DNA of 10,577 nucleotides. Source: Desulfotignum sp. (GTDB taxonomy: Bacteria > Desulfobacterota > Desulfobacteria > Desulfobacterales > Desulfobacteraceae). The stretch covers positions 1-10,577 of the forward strand of contig JAABSS010000440.1 of NCBI GenBank assembly GCA_011390235.1, given 5' to 3'. A model generated the notes under the pieces. That model ran no database searches. It was given only the letters and a program-made list of their open reading frames with translations, and had not been told where the DNA came from. Within the stretch, counting starts at the first letter, position 1; each line of letters begins with the position of its first letter. A program made the position numbers and the translations under genes. Shown here one piece after another: positions 7,282 to 10,577 of this stretch.

Positions 7282-7406
7282 TGGTTTTTTCGATTGATTT
7301 TGGTTTCCCCCTGATTTTTTCTCGACGGACCGATTTCGCACGTGTGCCGCCCCTGGTGGGGACTTGCTGTGCAGGGAGAACCATGGCCCGGGGTCATCAG
7401 CGACTA

Positions 7407-7596
7407 GTGTCGTGGGGTTGCTGTGGGGCGAATCCCATTCTGCTGCGTTTGTTACAGTGTGTTAGGCATGCAAAGCGTTAAGAACGTCAAACTGTGTGAG
7501 GACATACCTGCCCGCAGTTTTTGACGTTTAGCGCAGCATGCCTTACACACTGTCAAACGGGGCAGACGGGTGAGACCCGCAGCAACCCCACGACAC
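7407..7596. repeat. 190-bp interrupted palindrome with three nested stems
   Basis: The outer arms GTGTCGTGGGGTTGCTG (7407-7423) and its exact complement (7580-7596) are 17 bp and perfect. Inner arms ACAGTGTGTTAGGCATGC (7454-7471) and its partner at 7536-7553 match at 17 of 18. A third, gapped pair joins 7475-7493 with about 7515-7533. The parts between stems are also alike on both sides (CTGC..CGTTTG against its complement). It could be two diverged units of about 95 bp inserted head to head, a non-autonomous mobile element, or a structured RNA. It has no open frame and no transposase. Confidence 0.8.
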
Positions 7597-7663
7597 GGGT
7601 CTTTTGATCAACAGAAACGAACCTTTGAAACAGGCTTTTCAAAATACCGGGTCCCGAATCTGG

Positions 7664-7720
7664 CTGTGATTGCCCTATGATCCGGATGCCTGTGATTGAT
7701 TGCCCGTATGATCCGGATGC
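7664..7720. repeat. Two-copy tandem duplication of about 26-31 bp
   Basis: CTGTGATTGCCC-TATGATCCGGATGC (7664-7689) is followed directly by CTGTGATTGATTGCCCGTATG plus ATCCGGATGC (7690-7720). The copies differ by a 4-nt ATTG duplication and one inserted G. It looks like replication slippage in noncoding DNA. Confidence 0.75.
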
Positions 7721-7768
7721 AGGTGTTGACCCGTCCCCATAAAACAGGTAATACAGGGCCTGAATAAA

Positions 7769-7910
7769 GGCCATGCCCTGAGCGGGCACAACAAACATGA
7801 AAGCCATTAGCTGTTAGCCGTTAGCTGGTAGCTGGTAGTAACCAGCAGGGAAAAATTTGTAATTGTTTATTGGAAGAAGATAACTGAGTACTGACGGCTG
7901 CCGGCTTTCA
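7769..7910 (-). repeat. Heptad-arm hairpin element, copy A (inverted)
   Basis: The head is a 5-bp hairpin TGCCC/GGGCA (7774-7788). A CAACAAACA linker joins it to a 113-nt body, TGAAAGCC ... GGCTTTCA (7798-7910). The left arm is built of 7-nt units TTAGCTG, TTAGCCG, TTAGCTG, GTAGCTG. The right arm is built of partly complementary 7-nt units GATAACT, GAGTACT, GACGGCT, GCCGGCT. The tip carries ACCAGCAG and AAAAATTTGTAATTGTTTA. Orientation is opposite to copies B and C. It ends 30 bp before the start of the DUF3524 gene. Confidence 0.85.
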
Positions 7911-7940
7911 GTTAAAAAACAGACACAAAGGTGGACAACA

Positions 7941-9065
7941 GTGAAAGTGCTATTTCTGGAACCCTTCTTCGGCGGATCCCACCAGGATTTCGCCACAGGT
8001 TTTGCAGCCCATTCCCGGCATGATGTGACCTTGGCGACCCTGCCGGCCAGTTCCTGGAAATGGCGTATGCGGGGAGCGGCCCTGGCTTTTTTGCAGAAGA
8101 TAAAAGATATTGCCTCCTATGACCTGGTGTTTGCCACAGACATGATGAATGTTGCAGATTTTCTGGCACTGACAGGCCCTTCCCGGCCGCCCCTGGTATT
8201 GTATTTTCATGAAAACCAGCTGTCCTATCCCCTTTCTCCCAGGGAGAAAAAAAGAACACCGGATGTGGGGCTGGGCTTTATCAATATCACCTCTGCCCTG
8301 GCTGCTGACCTGGTGTTGTTCAATTCTGCATTTCATCTGGACGCGTTTGCAAAAGAGGCCCGGAAACTGATAAAGCAGATGCCGGCACCCCGTCCGTCAC
8401 AAATGGTCAACCGTATTTTAGAAAAAACCCGGGTGGTGTATCCAGGCTGCCGGTTTTCGGCAGAACCGGTTTCTGTGACGCCGCGTTCGTCAGATCCGCC
8501 ATTGATTATTTGGAACCACCGGTGGGAGTATGACAAGCAGCCGGAGGTTTTTTTCCGGGTACTTGGCAAACTCCGGGACAAAGGGGTGCCGTTTTCTCTG
8601 GCTGTGATGGGAGAGCAGTATGACCGGTATCCTGAGGTATTTGACAGGGCGAAACAAACCTTTGCCGACCAGATAAAAGTATTCGGGTATGTGCCGTCCC
8701 GGGCTGCGTATCACTCCTGGCTGGCCCGGGGAAGTGTGGTGGTTTCCACTGCCATTCAGGAAAATTTCGGCATCTCCGTGGTGGAAGCGGTGCGGTTCGG
8801 CTGCTTTCCTTTGCTGCCCCAGAGGCTGTCCTATCCGGAGATCATGCCGGAAAAATTTCACCCTGACATTCTGTACCAATCTGAAATCCAGCTTCTGGAA
8901 AAACTGGCATACCATCTTTTCCACCCTGAGGCCGGTCGGCCTGTGCAAAAAGCGTTGTGTGAGCATGTCCAGCAGTTTTCCTGGGAAATCTTGGGGCCGC
9001 AATACGACAATCTGCTGGAAAATTGTCAAAAAAAGGGGGCCAATCCTGCAGGCAGCTGCATGTAA
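7941..9065 (+). CDS. DUF3524 / tRNA-queuosine alpha-mannosyltransferase (QTMAN, GTDC1)-like GT4 glycosyltransferase
   Basis: A 374-aa GT-B glycosyltransferase of the GT4 type. The N-terminal DUF3524 signature is clear: LEPFFGGSH (6-14), WKWRMRGAA (39-47), DLVFATDMMNVADFLAL (61-77), LYFHENQLSYP (87-97) and FINITSALAADLVLFNSAFH (113-132). The C-terminal half has NHRWEYDKQPE (192-202), for nucleotide-sugar phosphate contact, and the E274-NFGISVV-E282 (E-x7-E) motif of GT4 enzymes. The vertebrate homologue GTDC1/QTMAN mannosylates queuosine in tRNA-Asp; whether bacterial relatives do the same is inference. The start is GTG at 7941, with AAAGGTGG 6-7 nt upstream, inside repeat-bearing DNA. It stands alone between inverted repeat elements and ends at a terminator 190 bp downstream. 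The last residues AGSCM resemble the end of trmJ. Confidence 0.85.
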   Translation: MKVLFLEPFFGGSHQDFATGFAAHSRHDVTLATLPASSWKWRMRGAALAFLQKIKDIASYDLVFATDMMNVADFLALTGPSRPPLVLYFHENQLSYPLSPREKKRTPDVGLGFINITSALAADLVLFNSAFHLDAFAKEARKLIKQMPAPRPSQMVNRILEKTRVVYPGCRFSAEPVSVTPRSSDPPLIIWNHRWEYDKQPEVFFRVLGKLRDKGVPFSLAVMGEQYDRYPEVFDRAKQTFADQIKVFGYVPSRAAYHSWLARGSVVVSTAIQENFGISVVEAVRFGCFPLLPQRLSYPEIMPEKFHPDILYQSEIQLLEKLAYHLFHPEAGRPVQKALCEHVQQFSWEILGPQYDNLLENCQKKGANPAGSCM

Positions 9066-9253
9066 ATGGTTCCATCCATATGCCAGGGTGCCCCGTCCCC
9101 TGCATAGCCTTGTATCCGGGCCGGGATACCCGGGGGGTTGACAATTGCGGTGCAGAATCCCCGGGAGGGGGTGTGCAACATGCCGGATCTGGAGGAAATT
9201 GCCTTAGAAATGATCATTGCCTGACTTGATAAACCCGCTTGTTTACGGTATAG
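9066..9253 (+). other. GC-rich 3' leader-like segment without a supported gene
   Basis: This stretch lies between the glycosyltransferase stop and its terminator. It carries two GC-rich inverted repeats: GTATCC-N6-GGATAC (9112-9129) and CCCGGGG paired with CCCCGGG near 9129-9165. A short open frame (9108-9224) ends with NMPDLEEIALEMIIA, which looks protein-like but has no good start and no recognised family. It could be a gene-end remnant or a structured 3' UTR. Confidence 0.35.
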
Positions 9254-9290
9254 AGGAATCATGATGTTTCATCCTGATTCTTTTTTTATA
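9254..9290 (+). terminator. Rho-independent terminator of the DUF3524 gene
   Basis: GAATCA-T-GATG-TTT-CATC-C-TGATTC (9256-9280) folds into a 10-bp stem with one mismatch and a 3-nt loop, followed directly by seven T residues (9281-9287). It is the clearest intrinsic terminator in the window and sits just before repeat copy B. Confidence 0.8.
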
Positions 9291-9430
9291 TGAAAGCCGT
9301 CAGCCTTAAGTACCCAGTTATCAGCTTCCAGTAAACAATTACAAATTTTTCTGCTGGTTACTATCGGCACTAACAGCTCATGGCTCATGGCTAATGGCTT
9401 TCATTTTTTGCTGTTGCCCGCCCGGGCATG
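9291..9430 (+). repeat. Heptad-arm hairpin element, copy B
   Basis: The body TGAAAGCC ... GGCTTTCA (9291-9403) is exactly 113 nt, the same as copy A. It shares the tip AACAATTACAAATTTTT and CTGCTGGTTACTAT, but its heptad units differ (complement strand: TTAGCCA, TGAGCCA, TGAGCTG, TTAGTGC). The TGCCC/GGGCA head is at 9415-9428, with loop GCCC. Copy B lies directly after the terminator and directly before copy C in the same orientation. Confidence 0.85.
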
Positions 9431-9436
9431 GCCGTT

Positions 9437-9560
9437 TATATGAAAGTAGTGAGATATGAGGTTTGAGTAGTGAGAAAAAAATATCAAATTAGCTTCTCTC
9501 AATACTCATAACTCACCACTCATAACTTTCATAATTTGTTGTGCCCGCAGGGCATGGGGG
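9437..9560 (+). repeat. Heptad-arm hairpin element, copy C
   Basis: The body TGAAAGT ... ACTTTCA (9441-9531) is 91 nt with the same architecture but different unit sequence: left units GTAGTGA, GATATGA, GGTTTGA, GTAGTGA, and right units CTCAATA, CTCATAA, CTCACCA, CTCATAA. An AT-rich tip lies between. The linker TTTGTTG and the head TGCCC-GCA-GGGCA (9542-9554) match copies A and B. Copy C ends about 30 bp before the TIGR03790 start. Confidence 0.85.
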
Positions 9561-9591
9561 TTATTGGGTATAAAGCAAGAAGAAAGGCGCC

Positions 9592-10577
9592 ATGAAGAGA
9601 TTATTATTTTTTCTGACCTGTATCTTCACTGTTTTTTTGGTTTGGTTTGCAGTGGCCGGTGCATCAGCCCTCACCCCGGAAGAGGTTCTGGTTGTGGCAA
9701 ACAGGAATGCCGCAAAAAGCAATGGCCTGGCAATCTATTACATGGCAAAGCGCCGGATCCCGGAAGAAAATCTGGTGTTGTTGTTTGTTACCGACAAAGA
9801 GCAGTGTTCCAGGGAAACCTATGAAAAAAAAGTTGTCCCGCCTGTTTTGCGGGCACTGGATGCCAATCCCGATATCCGGGCAGTTGTCACCATGTACGGG
9901 GTACCATTGAAAATTACCTCTCCCGGGCATACAAGTGAAGAAAAAACACACCTGGACCGCCTGGAATCTGAAAAAGCGCACCTGGAAGAGCTGCTGTCTG
10001 AAGATGACGCTGATGCCGGAGACGAAGAAATTATCAGGCAAAGAAAACAAAAACTGACCAGGTTGAAAAAGACCATCTCCTCCCGTGTCCGCCGGCTGGA
10101 CAAGACAGCATCATTTGATTCGGAATTGATGCTGGTGAAAGCAAAAGCGTATCCATTGAATATGTGGGTGCCCAATCCATATTACCTGGGGTTTGCAAAC
10201 CGCAAACCGGTTGTGAAAAAATCAGAGGTAATTATGGTCAGCCGCCTGGACGGGGCGGATGACACAATTGTCAGGCGCATCATTGATGACAGTATACAAG
10301 CTGAGATAGTTTGATGCACGGTGGCAGGATCACGGAGACACAGAGCTGGGCGGATATGGTCTGTATGACCGCTCCATTCACAGGGCATCACAAAAGGTGG
10401 CAGATAAAACACCAATGGGTGTGGTGCTCAATGATACCAAAGCATTATTCCAGAAAGGAGAAAGCCCTGATACCGCCCTTTACTGCGGCTGGTACAGCCT
10501 GGCAAAATATGTTGATGCCTTTGTGTGGCAGAAAGGGTCTGTGGGGTACCACATCGCCAGCTCGGAATGCGCCACCC
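9592..10577 (+). pseudogene. TIGR03790-family exported protein, frameshifted and cut by the window edge
   Basis: The first frame (9592-10314) encodes 240 aa. A signal peptide covers residues 1-26, ending AVAGASA. The family N-terminus follows: LTPEEVLVVANRNAA, then GLAIYYMAKRRIPEENLVLL, then AVVTMYGVPLKI. A charged, coiled-coil-like stretch spans about 122-172. The frame stops after DDSIQAEIV. The family sequence resumes from 10310 in the +1 frame as FDARWQDHGD, and continues to DTALYCGWYSLAKYVDAF and GYHIASSECAT at the window end. Only ATAG (10306-10309) separates the two matching parts, where the family normally has several residues, so a small deletion probably broke the frame. No slippery heptamer is seen, which argues against programmed frameshifting. 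The function of TIGR03790 proteins is unknown; they are exported. AGAAAGG precedes the ATG. Confidence 0.85.

Follow-up and report, generated by a model that had tools for sequence, protein, structure and literature searches.

We analysed a 10,577-nt stretch of a Desulfotignum sp. genome (contig JAABSS010000440.1; the window), in which three short hairpin-bearing elements, here named A, B and C, lie around a bystander gene of the tRNA-queuosine mannosyltransferase type. A preliminary description of the window had proposed three copies of one plan, with a TGCCC/GGGCA mini-hairpin, a short linker and a longer hairpin closed by TGAAAG/CTTTCA whose arms consist of 7-nt units. All three copies were found where it had put them, almost exactly, and their TGAAAG-to-CTTTCA bodies indeed measured 113 nt in A, 113 nt in B and 91 nt in C. 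The element limits reach past the mini-hairpin, out to flanking TT dinucleotides (the TT cores described below), and none of the copies carries a transposase gene or a guide RNA. With the element strand read as TATATGAAAG-body-CTTTCAT-head, where the head includes the mini-hairpin, A runs on the minus strand as TAACTGAAAG ... CTTTCAT-G-TTTGTTG-TGCCCGCTCAGGGCA-TGGCCT, and A and B are 87% complementary along 70 nt. A covariance model of the head without its flank (R2) identified the heads at 9526-9558 (E 2.7e-14), 7770-7803 (E 3.4e-12) and 9398-9432 (E 1.9e-8), the first two of which were part of the R2 alignment while the third was not; the sole further match in the window up to E 1 had an E value of 0.67. 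When DNA folding was compared with shuffled sequences, C stood out strongly (z -5.7, 0/200 shuffles), and the effect was weak for A (z -1.4, 15/200) and B (z -1.8, 8/200).

Table 1. Features of the three elements and the gene between them, in coordinates of the whole 10,577-nt window.
Feature	Position	Strand	Size or basis
Miniature element A, heptad-bearing body	7768..7914	-	147 bp; R2 head match
Head hairpin of A, TGCCC/GGGCA, part of the right end	7774..7788	-	family-wide covariation of the stem
Target flank of A outside the element, TTATT on the minus strand (TT core + ATT)	7763..7767	-	TT insertion rule
tRNA-queuosine mannosyltransferase-type gene, bystander between elements	7941..9065	+	PF12038, E 1e-58
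Miniature element B, TATATGAAAG ... GGGCATGGCCG, body class as A	9287..9434	+	148 bp; R2 head match
Head hairpin of B, TGCCC/GGGCA	9415..9428	+	sequence
TT core separating B from C, head-to-tail junction GCCG-TT-TATATGAAAG	9435..9436	+	TT insertion rule
Miniature element C, TGAG/CTCA heptad body	9437..9560	+	124 bp; fold z -5.7; R2 head match
Right target flank of C, TTATT (TT core + ATT)	9561..9565	+	target rule

We then searched other genomes for the head (G, L and C numbers denote genomes, loci and contigs of the comparison set). The pattern CTTTCA-N5-20-TGCCC-N1-8-GGGCA matched 43 times in G001 and 24 times in G002, which is beyond chance because the control, the reversed pattern, gave 0-1 matches per strand in these genomes; at least 6 of the matches in G001 and at least 1 in G002 represent one head read on both strands in tandem copies, as counted on 30 and 22 fetched loci, respectively. 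The consensus of the family head is CTTTCATnnTTTGTTGTGCCCGYCAGGGCATGGnnG, followed by TTATT. Within the class, a covariance model of head plus flank (R1) had matches at E <= 1e-4 in at least 67 of 291 genomes, and in a phylum draw it had matches at E <= 1e-5 in at least 13 of 395, these counts being lower bounds owing to the stricter filters of genome scans and to an upper limit on the candidates scored. In 12 chosen genomes, R2 at E <= 0.01, with the heads of full-size elements (see below) included, found at least 150 heads each in G009 (Desulfonema magnum 4be13, L027), G133 and G255, 131 in G179, 114 in G220, 107 in G063, 103 in G108, 80 in G138, 31 in G034, 25 in G205, 16 in G142 and one in G233. 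The covariance-model search that the preliminary description had called for thus recovered many copies, dispersed over genomes of the class, and the fixed head that it had expected was borne out as well. The head consensus is kept and its stem covaries: TGCCC/GGGCA, TGACC/GGTCA, TGTCC/GGACA and TGAGC/GCTCA variants occur, and 22 double-change cells were counted against 8.2 +- 2.1 in shuffles that leave the relatedness of the copies in place (0/500 reached this number; slid structures gave at most 9). The alignment comprised 45 rows, three decayed copies retained, and two of the five stem measures were unremarkable (pairs changed on both sides, 3, reached by 84/500 shuffles; further pair types, 10, reached by 62/500). 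The window elements are members of a large family of miniature elements in sulfate-reducing bacteria.

Some heads were located directly upstream of a DEDD transposase gene, where they form one end of a larger element; its opposite end is (T)TTTATATGAAAC, and in several genomes both ends of such full-size elements are the same as those of the miniatures. These common ends, together with the insertion polymorphism described below, support the earlier suggestion of a non-autonomous mobile element. The two full-size proteins scanned both matched PF01548, PF02371 and NF033542 ('IS110 family RNA-guided transposase'), and relatives of the transposase at E <= 1e-80 were present in 21 of 389 class genomes. 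Complete transposase frames mostly span 421-463 aa from stop to stop, and the protein is likely to be about 420 aa, a length outside the 330-350 aa of IS1111 members and inside the range of 395-455 aa stated for the IS110-containing subgroup; for this reason the elements are called IS110/IS1111-type here. The subterminal inverted repeats of the full-size elements, ATGAAACAC/GTGTTTCAT, are 9 bp long, within the 7-17 bp of IS1111, and those of the Desulfonema type, ATGAAACT/AGTTTCAT, are 8 bp. Their counterparts in the miniatures are TATATGAAAG and CTTTCAT (ATGAAAG/CTTTCAT). The TGCCC/GGGCA hairpin is part of one end, the right end, which reads TTTGTTG-TGCCC..GGGCA-TGGnnG, with the repeat near it starting 36 nt from the end. 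Other IS110 genes (G001:C13, G119:C33) had no head, and one sub-threshold Rfam match to a CRISPR repeat (E 0.81) was obtained in a full-size element.

To define how the elements insert, empty sites were sought. Twenty elements met the filter, and the paired flanks of ten served as queries against G001, G002 and G003. Five of these ten G001/G002 elements (L182, L136, L174, L169 and L179) aligned across the junction to empty sites, L136 in two genomes, although its second site had diverged at the junction. The site L182/L302 is exact, AATGAT-TT-ATTATG becoming AATGAT-TT-[TATATGAAAG..GGCTG]-TT-ATTATG; L136/L328 and L174/L325 are consistent with it, and the junctions of L169 and L179 have diverged. 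L150 was occupied in both G002 and G001, its 28-nt body having drifted through point changes. For the full-size elements, the copy L228 of G138 lies within a gene frame; a paralogue of this frame in the same genome, L425, is uninterrupted and 98% identical over 348 bases, with CAG-TT-ATTGCGG in L425 against CAG-TT-TTTTATATGAAAC ... GGGGG-TT-ATTGCGG in L228 (the two pieces of the frame had no Pfam match, and an IS66 label was unconfirmed). The empty sites and the L228/L425 comparison show that insertion leaves a TT core on either side and no larger duplication, and that TTATT is the target; the T run at the left end is variable. This rule accounts for the head-to-tail tandem junction GnnG-TT-TATATGAAAG. 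The same polymorphism was found at the window itself. Its closest relatives by the mannosyltransferase-type protein are two loci from metagenome-assembled genomes, L002 (Desulfotignum sp., 94% aa identity) and L001 (89%), and the comparison that the preliminary description had advised shows empty sites there: the site of A is uninterrupted in both, the mannosyltransferase-type gene standing without A, and the B/C site is empty but diverged in L001 and holds a single element with a 19-nt body in L002. Since copies come and go or change their body at these orthologous sites, the body is free while the ends are constant.

On the 3′ side of the full-size transposase gene we identified a conserved non-coding block with 19 consensus pairs, 11 of which show at least one double change among 18 sequences. 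Most IS1111 members likewise have their non-coding region on that side of the gene (Siddiquee et al. 2024, PMC11187229, as far as its accessible text goes). The element ends recur in the block in slightly altered form (CATATAAAAC, GCACAAC). Adjacent to CATG it also has a variable segment, which agrees with the DNA flanking the respective element (TTATTA, TTATAT, TTTATA, TTAGT, TTCTA). Across 18 full-size types in five guide classes, the first four bases of guide and flank were the same in 16 (0/20000 permutations reached this), and the mean shared prefix was 5.1 bases compared with 3.3 after permutation. Of the 22 genome-and-guide groups, four were excluded because their guide could not be read; one G255 flank was unparsed, a tie in G108 was scored as a miss, G009 supplied 3 rows, G099 had no row, and G001 was outside the loci. 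Because the empty sites show that the flank belongs to the host, this match is what RNA-guided target choice predicts, and the block is predicted to be a structured guide RNA of the bridge RNA or seekRNA kind, with a predicted length of about 110 nt in Desulfonema magnum. Two genomes each carry two full-size types with different guides, TTATTAT and TTATATT in G138, and TTAGTAC and TTAGTTT in G205.

We further asked whether the miniatures follow the resident guide, reading a subset of the copies of each genome, with the window not counted in the tallies. The flank was TTTAT in 35 of 42 miniature rows of G009 (guide TTTATAT) and in 6/7 of G133 (guide TTTATAC), TTATT in 10/17 of G255 (guide TTATTTT), and TTCT in 4/7 of G034 (guide TTCTACT), after one of 8 rows (L372, minus strand) had been dropped as a spurious match; in G142 one of two rows matched the guide. 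TTATT was also the flank in 14/25 rows of G002, where no full-size element was found. The donor side gave a parallel result: the left end TTTATGTG was present in 12/17 miniatures of G255 compared with 1/42 in G009, is also the left end of the G255 full-size element, and appears as CACATAAAA in the G255 RNA. The picture is mixed: miniature flanks mostly follow the resident guide in G009, G133 and G255 and partly in G034, and they do not in G001 or in the one G138 miniature read.

Our preferred interpretation, to which we assign a probability of roughly 0.86, is that the window copies are miniature non-autonomous insertion elements with IS110/IS1111-type ends that are moved in trans by a DEDD transposase and its guide RNA. 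The miniatures would retain only the ends, which the transposase of a full-size copy and the bridge RNA or seekRNA from its non-coding region would recognise; the miniature would be excised as a circle and inserted at the TT core of a guide-matched target, here TT followed by ATT. For the window, such a full-size element would have belonged to its own lineage. The body between the repeats would be free to vary; in this group it is often a run of heptamers whose length shifts by 7 nt at a time, with a tendency to fold into a hairpin on the transposase-sense strand. Interpreted in this way, the copies would form a natural, abundant and gene-less branch of IS110/IS1111-type elements, a variant on a known kind of element. 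A laboratory precedent is the mini-IS of the insertion sequence (IS) ISEc11, in which 84 bp of the left and 71 bp of the right IS end flank a catA1 cargo that moves with transposase and seekRNA in trans (PMC11187229, in its accessible part).

Several observations weigh against mobilisation in trans. No transposase was identified among the ten open reading frames (ORFs) scanned in the window, and no guide-RNA match was found there. Matching RNA genes at E <= 0.001 were present in 4 of 16 copy-bearing genomes searched and missing from the other 12, all of which carry R1 heads and two of which, G039 and G110, are assembled almost entirely as a single contig. Other PF01548 genes gave 9 matches in G039, 3 in G110 and 6 in G201, and these 18 loci included one clear head, that of a miniature beside a remnant in G110; PF01548 was missing in 6/8 other genomes searched, including G002 with its 23 distinct head matches. 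The full-size types are related by descent, so the permutation counts of the guide test are not independent trials. Some flanks disagree with the resident guide, namely TTATA in 3/7 miniatures of G034, TTAGT in the sole miniature row of G138 (guides TTATTA, TTATAT), and TTATT in 15/32 and TTTAT in 6/32 rows of G001 (guide TTAGTAT), whose only matching full-size element is a contig-edge fragment. Finally, the strand bias of the bodies, described below, would not be expected if they were only passengers. In favour of mobilisation in trans, there is one documented loss of the mobiliser, in G110, where a miniature adjoins a transposase remnant; elsewhere, in the window too, the mobiliser may have been lost. 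The remnant (L412, G110:C1 ~4503169) derives from a transposase frame of the subfamily, lies beside a TGAG-type miniature and has 58/63 residues as in L228, counted by eye.

The lack of a matching RNA gene in most copy-bearing genomes tested, and the landing of Desulfonema full-size copies on left ends of the family, would also be expected if the small elements were an older family with another mobiliser whose ends an IS110-type element had captured or targets. We consider this improbable, given that the full-size copy of G138 is bounded by both ends while its paralogue site is uninterrupted and holds no miniature, and that the left-end and flank variants of the miniatures track the resident RNA in G255, G009, G133 and partly G034. 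Another view is that of REP/REPIN-like elements moved by a Y1 (HUH) transposase, in which the mini-hairpin would be recognised and the long hairpin would be the second arm; the preliminary description had considered such a kinship and advised a search for the enzyme. That search did return Y1_Tnp matches in all six genomes searched, the small hairpin with its conserved 5′ flank is reminiscent of REP plans, the number of copies is similar to that of REPs, and one head in G006:C64 is about 1.8 kb from a Y1 match. However, none of the 24 Y1_Tnp matches from the six genomes had a head in its fetched flanks, which extended at most 1.5 kb and were often truncated at the end of a contig, and the consensus TTTGTTG-TGCCC..GGGCA-TGG has no GT[AG]G foot. 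According to the accessible part of PMC6006769, this foot characterises REP subclasses 2.2, 2.4, 2.5, 2.7 and 2.8, and the motifs of 2.6 and 3 are without it. As the ends are those of DEDD elements and the flanks mostly follow a DEDD guide RNA, we regard a REP/Y1 origin as very improbable.

The least probable explanation, in our estimate, is that the hairpins are not moved but are retained because of their structure, serving adjacent genes as regulatory RNAs or terminators. It would account for the better folding of the head-first strand in 45/50 copies and for the convergent arrangement of neighbours, which was the commonest one (15/47 in a rough ORF count). It sits badly with insertion polymorphism at clean empty sites, a sequence-specific target, tandem arrays and the non-heptad bodies found elsewhere, and no Rfam match was obtained in the window at gathering scores.

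We next turned to the bodies, whose heptad units fall into two classes, NNNCAGC/GCTAACA and TGAG/CTCA, inside the defined ends. Among 50 two-ended rows, body length modulo 7 was uneven (0:20, 2:11, 5:6, 6:5, 3:5, 1:2, 4:1), and in one subclass the bodies were mostly 72, 86 and 100 nt long, with different left-arm heptads and a constant right arm. The preliminary description had suggested that the heptads are rewritten in concert on both arms. This was ruled out in the main class, in which a copy's own arms paired at 10.16 of 14 positions and swapped arms at 10.26 +- 0.24 (n 31; 1267/2000 permutations reached the observed value). When both classes were pooled, own arms did exceed swapped ones (46/2000 permutations reached the observed value), because the two classes differ; the TGAG-class arm test with fixed offsets was unreliable, its arms not being flush. 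When motifs were counted crudely, the numbers of left and right heptads showed no correlation (rho -0.13, p 0.47, n 32). The 7-nt period is real, and given these pairing and correlation results it is slippage-like, with concerted rewriting not seen.

The strand bias was pronounced: in the 45/50 copies mentioned above, which share descent, it is the transposase-sense strand that folds better by RNA energy. It arises because arm differences give G-U pairs on the head-first strand and C-A on the other, at 3.03 against 0.68 per 14 positions, both values being for the main class. Desulfonema bodies consist of one-sided heptads, and unrelated palindromic bodies occur at L350 and L360, in a genome that is probably G179, judged by a head variant in common with L296. 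At L350 (1-1107), an array of non-heptad palindromic copies lies beside a gene that by eye resembles the TIGR03790-type gene of the window. At L345 and L215 (G133), the miniatures contain other repeats or palindromes in their bodies, as though varied passengers were carried. Heptamer arrays of the gttagcc type were also observed outside recognisable elements, at L157 upstream of an element, at L152 and at L327.

In Desulfonema magnum (G009), the left end TTTATATG begins with the guide sequence TTTATAT. Each of the 11 full-size rows listed for this genome (10 loci) had TTTATATGAAA at the right flank, and in 31/42 miniature rows the next copy stood there. Among 89 heads from a list of at least 150, there were 28 same-strand neighbours with a spacing of less than 130 bp, which in 24 cases was 82, 89, 96 or 103 bp (17 at 89), so these head-to-tail arrays have spacings that differ by 7-nt steps. 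Since the guide corresponds to the family's own left end and the full-size rows land on it, the miniatures may serve as self-made landing sites. Tentatively, and at somewhat less than even odds, we propose that RNA-guided transposons of the Desulfobacteria class support large gene-less miniature populations, that in some lineages the guide matches the element's own left end so that miniatures act as landing sites, and that the strand-biased heptad hairpins may have been selected as a single-strand structure in the mobile form.

We also compared the family with known systems. REP/REPIN elements are likewise small, mostly intergenic, hairpin-bearing, non-autonomous and present in many copies; they differ in enzyme class and in their GT[AG]G foot, and the present heads were not found near Y1 genes. 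Palindromic elements derived from IS200/IS605 (PATE) show the same likenesses and also belong to another enzyme class. The STRR of cyanobacteria, raised earlier for comparison, are intergenic heptamer arrays that share the 7-nt period and have other unit sequences; the present units do not form an exact direct array, the form taken by STRR and TAACTGA repeats, and sit inside defined ends. The TAACTGA repeats of Beggiatoaceae also form intergenic arrays with a 7-nt period, but their units differ, most sets are just upstream of start codons, and the description available to us has no such ends or head (PMC4679880). With IS1111 and IS110, as far as they are covered in the accessible text of PMC11187229 and of Durrant et al. 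2024 (PMC11208160), which sets out the core, the bridge RNA and the IS1111 repeats, the family shares the DEDD transposase, the subterminal repeats, the downstream structured RNA region, insertion without a larger target duplication and the guide-matched target. Unlike them, the window elements have neither gene nor RNA, the full-size transposase is about 420 aa rather than the 330-350 aa of IS1111, and a distance of 36 nt separates the right end from the start of the repeat near it. The ISEc11 mini-IS corresponds in having ends and cargo only, with transposase and RNA in trans, but it was built in the laboratory, whereas the present elements are natural, multi-copy and have hairpin bodies (PMC11187229, same text). 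QMITE2 of Coxiella burnetii is a miniature tied to IS1111, and Desulfonema full-size copies likewise land on the family; in the portion of PMC5896051 available, QMITE2 is described as an IS1111 target, not as a non-autonomous relative.

In the open-licence literature on heptamer repeats, within its accessible text, no element with these ends was found. The words 'MITE' (miniature inverted-repeat transposable element) and 'non-autonomous' are absent from the accessible text of PMC11187229 and PMC11208160, as is 'miniature' from that of PMC11187229, and the corresponding text of a review of prokaryotic MITEs (PMC10969869) has no mention of IS110. Natural IS110-type miniatures were thus not evident in the open-licence literature so covered, an absence that carries little weight. 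Bridge RNA and seekRNA elements are a recently recognised class of RNA-guided recombinases, and a family with more than 100 copies in some genomes would be a natural record of accepted ends, cores and targets. The miniatures offer donor ends as short as about 10 and 36 nt, as well as a case of a guide matching its own end and of arrays arising, and they would account for a class of repeats that could otherwise be filed as REP-like or heptamer repeats.

Two other features of the window were observed. About 395 bp (7300-7694) have no counterpart at the orthologous place in L002; this stretch contains a long, imperfect palindrome (7402-7427/7576-7601 and 7454-7471/7536-7553), a direct repeat occurs near it at 7673 and 7704, and it is perhaps another small insertion. 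The TIGR03790-type gene at 9592-10314 matched only the first 163 of 316 model positions, and as its frame continues in L002, it seems to be broken by an early stop in the window.

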